A stretch of 64,000 nucleotides of DNA from Saprospiraceae bacterium. GTDB lineage: Bacteria; Bacteroidota; Bacteroidia; Chitinophagales; Saprospiraceae. The stretch is taken from assembly GCA_958295895.1 (NCBI GenBank), contig CATQHI010000007.1:1-64000 (forward strand). Direction: 5' to 3'. How positions within the stretch are numbered: position 1 is the first letter of the stretch; every line of letters starts with the position of its first letter. A program made the position numbers and the translations under genes. This document shows positions 42,456-48,522 of this stretch, in pieces. Under the pieces are notes generated by a model that was not told the DNA's origin, searched no databases, and saw nothing but the letters and a program-made list of their open reading frames with translations.

Positions 42456-42608
42456 GTGGTAGCGTGGGTGTTTATTCGTCCGTGGTGGGCGCTAAAGGTA
42501 GCCGCCCAACAGTTATGGTAGCGCCGCACCGTGGCCGGTGGCCGCCGACGCCCGCCTGACGAACTTGGTGTATCTACATATAGTTATAGTCCGAACATTA
42601 CTAAACCG

Positions 42609-45600
42609 ATGCTTAGAGCTGTTTTTCGATTTTTCGCCCTAGTGGCGAGTTTAACCCTATTCACTCACTGCGCAGACTACAAGCTTCACGAGGCCGAAAT
42701 CGAGGGCCTCACCAGCGAGACCACCCCCAGCGGTGACCTCGAGTACTCCACCTTCCTGGTCGGCGACCTAGGCTACGACTACGCCCGCGGACTCACTACC
42801 CTGGAAACCATGGTGAAGGCCATGCCCCAGAACAAAGCGAAGAGCTCCCTCCTACTACTGGGCGACATCACCGGCAAGGACGGACTTCGCAAGGACGACA
42901 ACGACGACGAGGTCGCTCACCTCGATGCCCTCATCGACCGGCTACAGCGCGTGCCGGGTAAGGTCTTCTACACCCCCGGAGAAAATGAGATCGGCCGCAA
43001 CGGACAGTTCAACCGCCTGGAACGGCTGGAGAAGTACTTCAAAAAACACAGCGGTAAGAAGGTAGAATTTATGCCCAACCGCGCCTGCTCCGGCCCGGAC
43101 GATGAGGAGCTCTACGACCGCGTCGGCCTTATCGGCATCAACACCGCCTGGTACATGGCCGACTGGAACCGCGATGAGGAGGTCAGCGAGGGCTGCGACT
43201 ACACCAACCGCGACGCGATGACCTTTGCCCTGGCCGACGAGATTAAGGGATACCGTGACCAGGTCAAGATCGTGATGATGCACCACCCCCTGCAGGCCAA
43301 CGGCAACCGGGGTGGACAGTATAGCCTCAAGCAGCACCTGTTTCCGTTGGCGGATCTAATTCCCGGTGCCTACGTGCCCCTACCCGTGGTCGGTAGTGTA
43401 TTTCGGCTCATTCAGGGCGTAGGGGGCGGACCGCAGGACCTGCATAATCTACGGTACCAGAATTTCGTGCGCAAGGTCGAGGCCGGCATCGACGACGAGG
43501 TCAACGTGATCTTCGTCAGCGGCCACGAGCATAACATGATGCTGGTACACGAAGGCGAGTACATGCAGGTCGTGGCCGGTTCCGGCAGCGTCCGCGGCCC
43601 CGGTATTGGGGGCAATGACGCGAATTACGTCCAGGGCGCGGTGGGCTACAGCCGCCTAGACTTTTACGACGATGGGGCGGTCTACGTCGGCTTCTATACC
43701 GTAACCGAAGATGGGCAGGAGCAGCGCACCTTTTACCGCCGCATCATCGAGGACCGCTTTCAGCCCCAGGACGTCGAGATCGAAGCCGTACCCACCGAGG
43801 AGGTCAGCGACCGCCTCGTCAAATCCACCATCTACGCCAATGAGGGCGGAGACCGTAGCGGTAGTTACCAAACTACCTTCGGCCGGCACTATCGTCCGCT
43901 GTACTATACGCCGGTTGAGGTACCCGTGGTGGACATCGACACCCTCTTCGGGGGCCTTACGCCCTACCGCCGTGGCGGAGGAATGACGACGATGAGCTTA
44001 CACACGGAAGGGGCCGACGGACACCTCTACCAACTGCGGTCGGTGCGCAAAAACCCGGCGCAGCTACTGCCCTCGCTACTGGAAAATAGCTTTGCCGCCG
44101 AGGTGGCCAAGGACCAGTTTACGGCCATTCAGCCCTATGCCCCCCTTACCCTGCCGCCCATGCAGCAACGGCTCGGCCTGCTCGGAGCCGATCCCCTGCT
44201 ATACTACGTGCCCAAGCAGCCCGGTCTGGGCAGCTTCAACACCAACTTCGGGGGGGAGATGTACTGGGTGGAGCAGCGGCCCGACGAGGACTGGAGTGGT
44301 ACCCGCTTCTTCGGCGGCAGTAAGGAAATCATCAGCAACAGCGACATGCGCGAGGAGCTGCGCGACAGCTGGAAGAACTACGCCGACCAGCACAACTTCG
44401 CCCGGGCCCGGCTCTTTGATTTCCTGATCGGGGACTGGGACCGCCACCGCGACCAGTGGCGCTGGGCGGCCTTTGAGGAAGAGGACGGCCGTACCCGCTA
44501 CGAGGCCGTAGCGCGCGACCGCGATCAGGTATTCTCAAATTTCGACGGAGGCCTCCTGGGGCTAGCCCGCCTATTCGTGCCCGAGGCCCGTAAGCTACGC
44601 CCCTTCACCGGCACCCTGAACAAGGCAAGGTGGCGAGCACTAAACGGGAAGTGGAACGACCGGGTCTTTCTCAACGGCGTGACGCGGGACGAGATGGTCG
44701 CAGAGGCGCGCTACATTCAGCAGAATATCTCTCCCGGGCTCATCGATTCGGCCATGCAACGGATGCCCCACGAGGTACTTCCCTATAGCCTCGACCAGGA
44801 AAACATCGCCGGTAAGCTCAAAGAGCGCCTCACCCAGCTCGACCGCTTTGCCGGGCAGTACTACGAGACCCTCGCCGAGAGCGTCAACGTGCTCGGCACC
44901 GACAATGATGATTATTTCCTGCTGGAGGGACTACCCAACGGCGACCTCCATGTACAGGTCTTCGATGCCGACAAGGAGGGCAATGCCGACGAGCTATTCT
45001 ACGACCGCGTTTTTGACCCCGGAGAAACTAAATCCGTCAACGTCTACGGTCTGGATGGCGACGACCGCTTCGAGCTCACCGGCCCCGATAGCCGCATCAA
45101 CATTCGCCTTATCGGCGGTACCGACGGCGACGAGGCCATCTCCAACGGCCAGCTAGGGGCCCGGGTGTACGACGAAAAAGATGGTATGGAACTGAGCGGT
45201 AGCACCAATAAACTCAAGGACCGCCGCAACAGTAAACGCCCCGAGCTCAATACCTACGACTTCGAGGAGTATTACCCCAACTACACCATCCCGATGCCGT
45301 CCCTGGGGTTTAACGTCGACGATGGGTTCTTCTTCGGCGGTGGCTTCACGACGACCATCAGCGGCTGGAAACCCGATCCCTACGCCCAACGCCATAATCT
45401 GACGGGTACCTACAGCACCAACGAATTCTTCAAATTTACCTATACCGGTGAGCTAAATAACGTCTTCGGTCCCAAAGCCGACCTGGTGGGGGCAGCCCAT
45501 TACTTTAGCCCCGGCTACGTAGCTAACTTTTTTGGATTAGGCAACCAGGGCGTGGGGCAGCCCGCTGACGAGGACCTCGAAACCATCGGCATCAATGACG

Positions 45601-46352
45601 ACCAGACGCTGGAGTACAACCGCGCCCGCCGCCGTGAGATCTATTTTAATCCCATGCTTCGCTTCAGGGGTAACCGCAACCGGACCAGCTTTTCCATCGG
45701 TCCCTTCTACCACAACATCCAACTCGATGATGCGCCGGACTACACCCTGATTGAGAACACCACCGCCATCCCCGACCGCGTATTCAACGCTCAACCCTTC
45801 GCCGGTCTGGCCGCATCACTGACTTCCAACAACTTAGCCGTGCCCCTACTGGCCGACAACGGCGTGAAGTACGAGCTCTTCGCCCGTCGGACCTGGAACC
45901 TCGACAATACGGACCGCTCCACTACGAAGTACGGCGGCAACCTGAGCTTCTACCGCATGCTCACCAAGGCCATTAACTTTGCCACCCGCATCGGCTTCGA
46001 ATTCAACACCGGCGACCCGGAGTTTTACCAACTGGCCTCCATGGGCGGACGCAGCAACTACCGGGCCGCACGGGTGGATCGCTACCTGGGCAACAATATG
46101 GTGTACCAGAACATCGACATCCGCCTGATCGGCTTCGGTATCGGCAAGGGGGAGGTGCCTACGGTGGGCGGCTTCATCCTGGGCCTCGACCACGGGCGGG
46201 TATGGCTCGACGGCGAAGACAGTAGCACCTGGCACGTGGGCTACGGCGGCGGGGTGTGGGTGGCTCCCCTGGGGGCAACTATCCTGAGCCTGACCTATTT
46301 TCTCGATGAGGAGCGGGGCCGGGTCAATTTTGCCGCGGGCTTCCCCTTCTAA
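42609..46352 (+). CDS. Metallophosphoesterase / kinase-like / outer-membrane barrel fusion
   Basis: A 1247-residue protein. It starts with a lipoprotein-like signal (MLRAVFRFFALVASLTLFTHC). Residues about 35-370 form a calcineurin-like phosphoesterase: LLLLGDITG, TPGENEIG where GNHD/E is usual, MMHHPLQ and VSGHEHNMM. Residues about 465-660 are the novelty: LYQLRSVRKNP with Lys481, then DFLIGDWDRHRDQW (Asp609-His613) and ARDRDQVF (Asp637, Asp639). This resembles the D-x-D-x-H...DxD pattern of CotH/Fam20/HipA-type atypical kinases. Residues about 860-1247 are a 16-strand-like D15/BamA-type barrel ending in Phe. The ATG at 42609 is chosen for the signal peptide. It leads a three-gene unit. Confidence 0.8.
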   Translation: MLRAVFRFFALVASLTLFTHCADYKLHEAEIEGLTSETTPSGDLEYSTFLVGDLGYDYARGLTTLETMVKAMPQNKAKSSLLLLGDITGKDGLRKDDNDDEVAHLDALIDRLQRVPGKVFYTPGENEIGRNGQFNRLERLEKYFKKHSGKKVEFMPNRACSGPDDEELYDRVGLIGINTAWYMADWNRDEEVSEGCDYTNRDAMTFALADEIKGYRDQVKIVMMHHPLQANGNRGGQYSLKQHLFPLADLIPGAYVPLPVVGSVFRLIQGVGGGPQDLHNLRYQNFVRKVEAGIDDEVNVIFVSGHEHNMMLVHEGEYMQVVAGSGSVRGPGIGGNDANYVQGAVGYSRLDFYDDGAVYVGFYTVTEDGQEQRTFYRRIIEDRFQPQDVEIEAVPTEEVSDRLVKSTIYANEGGDRSGSYQTTFGRHYRPLYYTPVEVPVVDIDTLFGGLTPYRRGGGMTTMSLHTEGADGHLYQLRSVRKNPAQLLPSLLENSFAAEVAKDQFTAIQPYAPLTLPPMQQRLGLLGADPLLYYVPKQPGLGSFNTNFGGEMYWVEQRPDEDWSGTRFFGGSKEIISNSDMREELRDSWKNYADQHNFARARLFDFLIGDWDRHRDQWRWAAFEEEDGRTRYEAVARDRDQVFSNFDGGLLGLARLFVPEARKLRPFTGTLNKARWRALNGKWNDRVFLNGVTRDEMVAEARYIQQNISPGLIDSAMQRMPHEVLPYSLDQENIAGKLKERLTQLDRFAGQYYETLAESVNVLGTDNDDYFLLEGLPNGDLHVQVFDADKEGNADELFYDRVFDPGETKSVNVYGLDGDDRFELTGPDSRINIRLIGGTDGDEAISNGQLGARVYDEKDGMELSGSTNKLKDRRNSKRPELNTYDFEEYYPNYTIPMPSLGFNVDDGFFFGGGFTTTISGWKPDPYAQRHNLTGTYSTNEFFKFTYTGELNNVFGPKADLVGAAHYFSPGYVANFFGLGNQGVGQPADEDLETIGINDDQTLEYNRARRREIYFNPMLRFRGNRNRTSFSIGPFYHNIQLDDAPDYTLIENTTAIPDRVFNAQPFAGLAASLTSNNLAVPLLADNGVKYELFARRTWNLDNTDRSTTKYGGNLSFYRMLTKAINFATRIGFEFNTGDPEFYQLASMGGRSNYRAARVDRYLGNNMVYQNIDIRLIGFGIGKGEVPTVGGFILGLDHGRVWLDGEDSSTWHVGYGGGVWVAPLGATILSLTYFLDEERGRVNFAAGFPF

Positions 46353-46364
46353 TCGTACTGGCAC

Positions 46365-47309
46365 ATGAACAAAATCTGGGAAAGTCCTAATCTAATCTCC
46401 GTCATCATTCTCGTGGTCGTCCTGGCCATCGCGGCCGGCTATGTCGTCTTTACCCTCAACCAGCGACCGGAGACGGAAAGTTTTACGGTAGACGATGACT
46501 ACTACTTCCCCTACAACTTCGACCGATTGGACCGGGTGGTGAAGTTACCCAACGAGCTAGCCGAGATCAGTGGGCTCTGCCGCGGCTTTGCCCCCGACGA
46601 GGTGTTCGCCGTGCAGGATGAGATCGGTACCGTCTTTCGGGTCAACTCCCGGAGCGGCGAGCTGCTCCAGCAAATCAAGTTCGACAAGGACCTCGACTAC
46701 GAGGGCATTGCACGTAAGGACGACGACATGTACGTGCTGGAGGCCGACGGCGACATCCACTACTTCGCCTACCAGGACACCGCGATCGAGATTCCGTCGC
46801 GGAAGCTGGAAACCAGCTTTAGCTACCGCAACGATACGGAGGGCATCTGCTACGACTCTATCACCAACACCCTACTGATCGTACCCAAGGCGCAGGAGCT
46901 GAACCCCCAGTCGGACAACGAGTCGCGCCGCGGGATCTACACCTACGACCTGCGGCAGGCAGCCCTCAACTCCCAACCCACCTACTACATCGACGAGCTG
47001 GAGGTCGGCCAGATCGTCTTCAATACCAACCGCCCCTACGTCGTTAATCCCAGTGGCATCGCCGTCGACCCCCTGACGGGGGATATTTTCGTGCTCTCGG
47101 CGGCGGGTCACGTGCTGGTGGTCATCGACCGCGATAGCCAGATCAAACACGTCGAGCTTCTGGAAAAGGGCACCTTCGGCCAGCCCGAGGGTATCGCCTT
47201 CGGAGCCAACGGCGACCTCTACGTCAGCAGCGAAGGACGCGGCGGACGCGGCATCATTGCCACCCTCTCCCGCAAGGGGCAACCCACCACCACCGATGAG
47301 CAAAGATGA
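46365..47309 (+). CDS. SdiA-regulated-type beta-propeller, membrane anchored
   Basis: A 314-residue protein with an N-terminal membrane anchor (about 10-31) and a propeller of the SdiA-regulated/SMP-30-like type: LPNELAEISGLCRGFAPDEV, DLDYEGIARKDDDMYVLEADG, NDTEGICYDSITNTLLIVPKA and GTFGQPEGIAFGANGDLYVSSEG. The family is found next to phosphoesterases and barrels in Bacteroidetes and may bind calcium and a nucleotide or sugar ligand. It starts 12 bases after the upstream stop and overlaps the next gene by 14 bases, so the three are surely one unit. Confidence 0.8.
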   Translation: MNKIWESPNLISVIILVVVLAIAAGYVVFTLNQRPETESFTVDDDYYFPYNFDRLDRVVKLPNELAEISGLCRGFAPDEVFAVQDEIGTVFRVNSRSGELLQQIKFDKDLDYEGIARKDDDMYVLEADGDIHYFAYQDTAIEIPSRKLETSFSYRNDTEGICYDSITNTLLIVPKAQELNPQSDNESRRGIYTYDLRQAALNSQPTYYIDELEVGQIVFNTNRPYVVNPSGIAVDPLTGDIFVLSAAGHVLVVIDRDSQIKHVELLEKGTFGQPEGIAFGANGDLYVSSEGRGGRGIIATLSRKGQPTTTDEQR

Positions 47310-48522
47310 AATAGCCAGCGTAGCGGAAATAAAGGAGCCGGAGGAATCTGCGATCGTAGCCACGGCCCGCACCTACGTCCGCTCGCGCTTTAACGAGGAT
47401 CTAGACCCCATCTTCCTCTTCCACAACTTCGCCTACGCCGAGGAGATGGAAGACAAGATGACCGAGCTCGCCGAACTTGCCAAGCTAGACGAACGCACCA
47501 CCGAACGCCTACAACTTGCGGCCCTATTCTACCCCCTGGGCTATGTCGGAGGGGCCGAGGGCTGGGCCGAACGAAGTGCCGGGGAGCTGATACGCTTCGG
47601 CCAGGATGAGGACTACGACCTAGGGGATGCCCCCCGCTGGATCAGTGTTGCACCCGCGGCCGCGCCCCAGAGTGACTACCCGACCAGATTGTTGCACGAC
47701 GTGGCCTGGAACTGGCTGGGACGCAAACGCTACGACCGCCGCTCCGACCTGCTGCAGCTCGAACGCGAGGCCATCGCGGGCAAGGAGGGCGACCCCGTAA
47801 AGTTTGGCGAGGAGATGCAGGACTTTCTGCTGCGCTTTAACTACCTGACGAACGAGGGGAAAAAAGAGTTCGACGGGCGGCGGCGTAAGAACGTCAGTAA
47901 GCAGCAAAGTAATAACTATAAGGTACAGCAAAAGGAGGTCAAGGCCAAAACCGGCAAGAACTTCGGTCGGGGCATCGACACCATGTACCGCACGGCCTTT
48001 CGTAACCACATCAACCTGAGCCGGATCGCCGACGATAAGGCCAATATGATGATCTCGATCAATACGATCATCCTGTCGATCCTGATCGCCGTTTCGGGTG
48101 CCGGACTGAGCTTCTTCGAGGAGCTGGTCTTCGATAGCCCGGAGTTTCTGGCCCCCATTGTGATCCTGCTGATGAGCTCGCTGACGGCGGTGATCTTTGC
48201 CGTCTTCTCCGCCCGCCCGAAGGTGACCGAGTACCGCATTAAGAAGCGTAAACTACTGGAAAGCAAGGAGGCAAGCCTCCTCTACTTCGGTAACTTCCTG
48301 AAGCTAGAGAAGTCAGATTTCATCAAGTACATGTCCAAGATGAAGATGGACCAGGACAGTCTCTACGACGACCTGGGCCGCGACCTTTACGATCTCGGAC
48401 AGGTACTGCACCGCAAGTACCTGCTACTGACCATCAGCTACAATACCTTTATCGGGGGACTGGCACTGGCCGTACTGACCTTTCTGACGGTCTACATCTG
48501 GAACCTGTCGAACATGCAGTAG
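47296..48522 (+). CDS. Pycsar-effector-type membrane protein with degenerate HD domain
   Basis: A 408-residue protein with an N-terminal HD-fold domain (about 20-190) and a C-terminal Pycsar-effector transmembrane domain (from about 232: YRTAFRNHINLSRIADDKANMM, then three membrane helices). The Pycsar effector domain senses cyclic UMP or CMP in antiphage systems, but the HD-fused form is widespread in Bacteroidetes outside obvious defence loci. In HD proteins a His-Asp pair lies in a segment like AALFHDIGY; here it reads AALFYPLGY (Tyr79-Pro80), and the first motif is FHNFAYA (His43). Metal-dependent hydrolysis therefore looks lost. No cyclase is adjacent. The ATG at 47296 overlaps the propeller gene. 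Confidence 0.82.
   Translation: MSKDEIASVAEIKEPEESAIVATARTYVRSRFNEDLDPIFLFHNFAYAEEMEDKMTELAELAKLDERTTERLQLAALFYPLGYVGGAEGWAERSAGELIRFGQDEDYDLGDAPRWISVAPAAAPQSDYPTRLLHDVAWNWLGRKRYDRRSDLLQLEREAIAGKEGDPVKFGEEMQDFLLRFNYLTNEGKKEFDGRRRKNVSKQQSNNYKVQQKEVKAKTGKNFGRGIDTMYRTAFRNHINLSRIADDKANMMISINTIILSILIAVSGAGLSFFEELVFDSPEFLAPIVILLMSSLTAVIFAVFSARPKVTEYRIKKRKLLESKEASLLYFGNFLKLEKSDFIKYMSKMKMDQDSLYDDLGRDLYDLGQVLHRKYLLLTISYNTFIGGLALAVLTFLTVYIWNLSNMQ

Follow-up and report, generated by a model that had tools for sequence, protein, structure and literature searches.

A probable lipoprotein of the Neolewinella group that joins a phosphoesterase and a kinase-like domain of CotH/HipA type to an Omp85-type barrel

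The gene at positions 42609..46352 on the forward strand of the window (the whole stretch analysed, the first 64,000 nucleotides of contig CATQHI010000007.1 in the Saprospiraceae assembly GCA_958295895.1) encodes a protein of 1247 amino acids that is most likely an envelope kinase. We think it likely that this is an outer-membrane enzyme whose N-terminal lipid is followed by a phosphoesterase, by a kinase-like domain from the CotH/HipA branch and by an Omp85-type barrel. The reading frame is open from an ATG at 42609 to the stop at 46352; a mechanical list of open reading frames gives the gene a longer start, at 42531. From N to C terminus, the protein consists of a lipoprotein signal, a calcineurin-type phosphoesterase, a middle region of about 350 residues, a small beta domain and the barrel. 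The original prediction, made from the sequence alone, had placed a lipoprotein signal, phosphoesterase, middle region and barrel in this one reading frame and had singled out K481, D609-W-D-R-H613 and D637-R-D639; we located all of these parts, and all of these residues at the same numbers. The features of the gene are as follows.

42609..42671, forward strand: signal sequence whose last residue, Cys21, is probably the lipid anchor, with a conserved Cys column
42744..43772, forward strand: calcineurin-type (purple-acid-phosphatase-like) phosphoesterase, residues ~46-388, from Pfam Metallophos in relatives and profile matches to tartrate-resistant and purple acid phosphatases (TRAP/PAP)
42978-42989, forward strand: phosphoesterase motif III, changed to GENE, from motif counts
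43881..44873, forward strand: CotH/HipA-like kinase domain, residues ~425-755 (limits approximate), from hhalign scores and predicted fold
44049..44051, forward strand: K481 (VRKNP), candidate ATP-binding lysine, from conservation
44433..44447, forward strand: D609-W-D611-R-H613, putative catalytic loop, with D611 aligned with CotH D228
44517..44525, forward strand: D637-R-D639 (ARDRDQVF), with D637 aligned with CotH D251
44874..45248, forward strand: all-beta domain at the junction of kinase-like region and barrel, residues ~756-880, from the predicted model
45249..46349, forward strand: Omp85/ShlB-type barrel, residues 881-1247, last residue F1247

The window genome, that of a marine bacterium, belongs to the Neolewinella group: 19 records, most of them under the names Neolewinella or Lewinella, contain full-length homologues with 53-82% identity, and orthologues are present in all 20 same-genus genomes. 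Homologues in other genera are about 30-35% identical, and 37 of the 60 genomes searched have a match in total.

The kinase-like character of the middle region emerges from profile comparison. We compared a profile of 63 diverse middle-region sequences by hhalign with 30 HipA and 30 CotH proteins from Bacteroidota genomes, and obtained scores of 46.4 for CotH and 40.3 for HipA. Across 200 column shuffles, the maximum was 26.5 for CotH and 24.6 for HipA, and the reversed profile scored 15.3 and 16.0. The controls, namely four families of non-kinases and the phosphoesterase of the protein itself, scored 13.5-28.1, the highest being a 771-residue neighbour family aligned over 20 columns. The CotH and HipA alignments span the same stretch, which holds the RLFD helix, the DWDRHxDQW loop and the PRDRDQxF motif. 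In the 166-column CotH alignment, which covers the C-terminal lobe (C-lobe) only, D611 falls on the Asp of the CotH "GNwD" loop and D637 on the first Asp of "PyDyD" ("iPrDRDqaF" beside CotH "iPyDyDntlG"). Judged by their order and spacing, the D611 and D637 columns would correspond to CotH D228 and D251; the Asp pair is 23 residues apart in spore coat protein H (PDB 5jd9), as are D228 and D251, and 26 apart in the window. The D228Q and D251A variants of Bacillus subtilis CotH are catalytically inactive (PMC7821199).

The protein departs from each of these families in several ways. It differs from CotH (PF08757) in lacking a Pfam match to that family, in carrying DWDRH where CotH has NxD, in its unaligned N-lobe, and in being fused to a phosphoesterase and a barrel. 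Its loop D611-R-H613-x-x-Q616 is aligned with the D-x-H-x-x-N loop of the HipA/CtkA kinases (PF07804), with D611 and H613 present and Gln at the Asn position in 76 of 78 homologues. Unlike those proteins, it has no Pfam HipA_C match, is predicted to be lipidated and exported, and shows neither HipB nor a HipA N-domain. A DRH-type loop followed by a D-x4-F motif is also familiar from Fam20C and the PI3K-PI4K kinases. The family PF00454 of PI3/PI4 kinases was found in none of 198 Bacteroidota genomes, and CotH has been described as a distant relative of Fam20C (PMC7821199). PADLOC gave two weak matches to PDC-M03A candidate defence models, at residues 586-618 and 589-617 (E values 0.0036 and 0.0085).

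Conservation of the putative catalytic residues is strict. In 11 diverse sequences, the window protein and ten homologues of 30-53% identity, R477, K481, RLFD601-604, DWDRH609-613, D615, QWRW616-619 and RDRDQ636-640 are invariant. In a set of 78 homologues that carry the phosphoesterase, with the window protein among them, K481, D604, D609, H613, D637 and D639 are kept in 78/78; K481, D609, H613, D637 and D639 are the residues whose conservation the original prediction had proposed to check. D611 and Q616 are each kept in 76, with Asn at position 616 in two. A wider set of 66 sequences that includes members without the phosphoesterase keeps K481 in 58, D609 in 63 and D637 in 59, and several of the phosphoesterase-less members (L087-L095, L098) have broken kinase motifs. 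These look like pseudokinases from their sequences, and part of the family therefore need not be catalytic. The main rival to a kinase is that the window protein is itself a pseudokinase, which would keep the fold and most motif letters but have a role in binding or scaffolding, either for the barrel or for the SdiA-regulated propeller encoded next to it. The relatives that retain the domain despite broken K/D motifs speak for such a role, as does the replacement of the usual metal-binding Asn by Gln616 in 76/78. Yet the complete retention of five of the named residues, and of D611 in all but two homologues, is stricter than that of the phosphoesterase centre and hard to explain without catalysis, and we regard a pseudokinase as unlikely.

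The predicted fold is consistent with a kinase. We modelled residues 388-880 with AlphaFold2 from an alignment of 20 genus sequences; the best model had a mean predicted local distance difference test score (pLDDT) of 70 and a predicted template modelling score of 0.75, and the other four had mean pLDDT values of 53-61. In our reading, its elements come in kinase order: strands and helices lead to a pair of long helices, after which follow the DWDRH loop, another two strands, the RDRD motif and further helices. The top Foldseek matches were both chains of CtkA, which we take to be a HipA-like kinase (E values 1.1e-3 and 1.3e-3, probability 1.00, template modelling score 0.46 on the target), with weaker matches to the kinases BTK, SIRK1 and HipT. 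A resemblance to atypical kinases, which had been proposed from motif spacing, is thus supported at three levels: scores to CotH and HipA above shuffles and controls, a kinase as top structural match, and invariance of the named residues. We used the model for the fold only because its motif regions are of low confidence. A kinase fold could also serve a different reaction, for instance AMP transfer or glutamylation as known for SelO and SidJ. The RDRD motif, unusual in place of DFG or DxD, would fit this, and there is precedent in the polyglutamylation reported for kinase-like SidJ (PMC6858067). The nearest families that we found, CotH and HipA, are phosphotransferases, and we consider a different chemistry very unlikely.

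The middle region also occurs without the phosphoesterase in reading frames of about 530-590 residues (L082, L083, L104, L107), and with the barrel and no phosphoesterase in an 874-residue frame (G038, matching query residues 423-1245); at two loci (L187, L217), the kinase-like domain and the phosphoesterase are encoded by separate adjacent genes. Some loci (L104/L107, L100/L108, L219) have divergent kinase-like genes next to one another, in twos or threes; at about 530-590 residues, they are too short for a barrel. This bears on whether the protein is an ordinary member of the Omp85 "Metallo" group, in which the middle region would be a mere linker or a POTRA substitute. Heinz and Lithgow listed that group in 2014 as Omp85 proteins with PF00149, which they called a metalloprotease (PMC4104836), and the window's relatives share its combination of a PF00149 domain and an Omp85 barrel in one chain (Metallophos in 8/11, Omp85 in 7/11), although the window copy falls below both Pfam models; the likeness is one of domain description. 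A mere linker is highly improbable: the middle region is no less conserved than the other two regions (average column identity 54% versus 48% and 46%, from slightly different sets), is predicted to adopt an alpha/beta fold, has CotH/HipA profile scores above those of shuffles, and occurs without the phosphoesterase, with or without a barrel. The claim of a new architecture survives in part: phosphoesterase-Omp85 fusions were already described in 2014, and the word "kinase" does not occur in the main text of that paper (PMC4104836). In the open PubMed Central (PMC) literature, our searches found no paper that assigns a kinase domain to these proteins, and a term search of two papers on the Bacteroidota BAM complex (PMC12611786, PMC12578637) returned neither "kinase" nor "phosphoesterase".

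For the phosphoesterase domain, Pfam Metallophos was found in 8 of 11 family members and no Pfam family in the window's own copy; the phosphoesterase profile matched TRAP/PAP chains in the PDB (best E value 1.4e-6). Most relatives retain the GDxG, GDN-Y, GNHD, HHP and GHxH motifs of these enzymes, whereas the window copy carries GENE and GDITG, so that the active calcineurin-like signature GD-GD-GNHD-H-GHxH is not intact. GENE is present in 20/20 genus orthologues; outside the genus, the Asn of GNHD is kept in 52/58 homologues and the His in 50/58. The original prediction had taken both GENE and a first motif of DLG as signs of altered chemistry. The former is indeed a genus-wide change and supports altered chemistry, but we rejected the latter because GDxG is the normal first motif of the family, with Gly in 52/58 homologues outside the genus; purple acid phosphatases share a DxG-type first motif.

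As for the location of the protein, the Cys at the residue-21 column is invariant in the 11 diverse sequences and present in 64 of the 78 phosphoesterase-bearing homologues. NCBIfam Omp85_fam matches residues 1085-1247 with an E value of 4.3e-8, but at 33 bits against a model cut-off of 200; the C-terminal regions of 11 family members match Pfam Omp85 in 7 cases and ShlB in 8, that of the window matches no Pfam family, and F1247 is invariant among the 11 diverse sequences. The barrel, described as Bam-type in the original prediction, is Omp85-type. In the model, the all-beta domain that precedes it is built of strands with no helix of at least 4 residues, with block mean pLDDT of 84-96 over residues 758-867. 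A location outside the cell was not borne out: since a lipid anchor and an Omp85 barrel are all that we see, the enzyme domains more probably face the periplasm than the surface. Surface exposure would follow from type Vd-like secretion, in which the N-terminal enzymes are passengers moved through the Omp85-type barrel like the patatin-like PlpD. An enzyme precedes an Omp85 barrel in PlpD as it does here (PMC4104836), and the ShlB similarity in 8/11 relatives would agree with it. Against this, an N-terminal lipid (Cys in 64/78) would keep the domains tethered to the membrane, Pfam scans of the window protein and of family members listed no POTRA family, and with TamL there is already an Omp85 protein in Bacteroidota that is lipidated at its N-terminus (PMC12045153). 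We consider type Vd-like secretion rather improbable.

Two genes follow on the same strand.

46365..47309, forward strand: SdiA-regulated beta-propeller protein, 12 bases downstream (Pfam PF06977, E value 1.5e-15)
47296..48522, forward strand: HD-like and PycTM membrane protein whose start overlaps the propeller gene (Pfam PF18967, E value 3.6e-24)

Among 19 genus loci, the propeller gene comes next in 18 and the PycTM gene then follows in 17; the contigs of the remaining loci end before these genes. We surveyed the fetched flanks of 60 loci from 25 families and found a PycTM gene in 37 (18 families) and an SdiA-regulated gene in 29. Three of the 60 loci (G028, G115, G077) were picked after PycTM had been seen nearby, and without them the count is 34/57; conversely, 37/60 is perhaps an undercount, as one locus (L196) holds a PycTM gene missed by the labelling. 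The same flanks contain a ~771-residue protein at 16 loci, polyphosphate kinase 1 at 13 (6 families) and a SixA-type phosphatase at 9. The polyphosphate kinase 1 loci (L188, L190, L199, L207, L209, L210, L212-L215, L226-L228) often carry SixA and PycTM as well. Polyphosphate kinase is found in 57 of 61 genomes, so for this enzyme position is informative and presence is not; it is not adjacent to the window's copy, and the window genome has one polyphosphate kinase match and a second split into three pieces (G000:C3:684602-685120). The ~770-residue protein (e.g., L224:8867-11179) lies near the PycTM and kinase-like genes at its 16 loci, and one member that we scanned had no Pfam or NCBIfam match.

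Both Pfam and PADLOC identify the membrane domain of the PycTM partner, as in Pycsar. Unlike Pycsar, the partner has an HD-type domain in most relatives, degenerate in the window. The HD residues are lost in 18/18 genus copies (H..HT to HN..Y/F, HD to YP) while the membrane domain stays. Among the 37 PycTM neighbours found at other loci, 24 are represented in the HD columns; 23 retain H..H and HD, and one (L172) does not. A further five have frames that run past the end of the fetched sequence. The two phosphohydrolase centres of the window operon are thus damaged genus-wide (GENE and the HD loss) and its kinase centre is intact, on which ground the kinase-like part is probably the working half in Neolewinella. 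The window genome has two further PycTM matches (C12 and C2). Because no cyclase domain was found in the nine window proteins scanned with Pfam, phage defence was set aside as the main role despite the presence of PycTM; of the 60 other loci, 4 or 5 have a cyclase gene family close to the kinase-like gene, and the one that we scanned, at L184, is a class III cyclase that carries TPR repeats.

Presence and absence across genomes mirror this gene linkage. The kinase-like domain occurs in 143 of 395 Bacteroidota genomes, about a third, and PycTM in 144; 121 genomes have both, 22 the kinase-like domain only, 23 PycTM only and 229 neither (Fisher test, 7e-54). By genus (n = 170), the corresponding counts are 66, 7, 13 and 84 (1.4e-25), and a first test on 61 of the 395 genomes gave 17, 2, 2 and 40. 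Since the genomes are related and hence not independent, these probabilities overstate the association; the neighbourhood evidence stands apart from them. What is new is the linkage itself, by neighbourhood and by presence and absence, to PycTM, often to the SdiA-regulated propeller and, in six families, to polyphosphate kinase. We found no relative on viral contigs and none in phages. Five plasmid records carry one, all from Bacteroidota (three Hymenobacter, one Persicobacter, one Parabacteroides), four annotated as "hypothetical protein" and one unannotated. On the Parabacteroides distasonis plasmid (L229:5920-8379), the protein annotated as hypothetical lies next to galactokinase and aldose epimerase genes.

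Besides the broken motifs described above, several findings weigh against reading the protein as a kinase with these partners. Searches at the sequence level gave no kinase family: the whole protein matched no Pfam family at an E value of 0.1, 14 family members searched against Pfam at E values up to 10 (subject to HMMER filters) gave single scattered matches only, and neither CotH (PF08757) nor HipA (PF07804) was matched by the window protein or the 14 members. Nothing credible came from NCBIfam or from sequence and profile searches of the PDB with the middle region, where gp41 chains at E values of 0.21 and 0.53 are chance matches. In the profile comparison, APH kinases score 19.2, like the controls, and the N-lobe with K481 does not align. 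The Foldseek matches in the PDB all have E values above 0.001, and the weak ones include YeaZ chains, which are unrelated. The model is modest overall: at model residues 250-276, where the D637 motif lies, pLDDT drops under 50, and the block mean at 221-230 is 57. Among the neighbours, 23/60 loci have no PycTM gene, and 8/37 PycTM neighbours are short proteins without an HD part. Finally, ATP is not expected outside the inner membrane.

Even so, we favour an envelope kinase. The analysis shows the order of the domains, their conservation, the profile relationship and the gene linkage; from these we infer the details of the kinase fold, and the activity, substrate, phosphate donor and orientation as follows. 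The kinase-like and phosphoesterase domains would be held at the membrane between lipid and barrel, where the kinase-like domain would transfer phosphate to an envelope protein or glycan. Based on the alignment and on what is known of these families, the catalytic base would be D611, the metal would be bound by D637 and Q616, and K481 would be placed on the nucleotide. In most relatives, the tethered phosphatase may remove the phosphate or process a phosphate-rich ligand, and the gene product would work with the SdiA-regulated propeller and the inner-membrane PycTM protein. Given the expected lack of periplasmic ATP and the position of the gene beside polyphosphate kinase 1 in six families, polyphosphate may be the donor or a ligand. 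A phylum-wide envelope phosphorylation module, in which an outer-membrane CotH-like kinase, together with the phosphatase of the same chain, sets or senses periplasmic or surface phosphate marks and signals via the inner-membrane PycTM protein, often with its HD domain, is a doubtful extension of this scheme.

The domain is present in 143 of 395 Bacteroidota genomes, yet no family model that we scanned names it a kinase. The tight link between PycTM genes and the kinase-like gene makes it likely that the PycTM domain has a role outside phage defence. Should the protein prove to be an active kinase, the Gram-negative outer membrane would have an enzyme devoted to phosphorylation, with its own phosphatase alongside, and the identity of the periplasmic phosphate donor would become directly testable.

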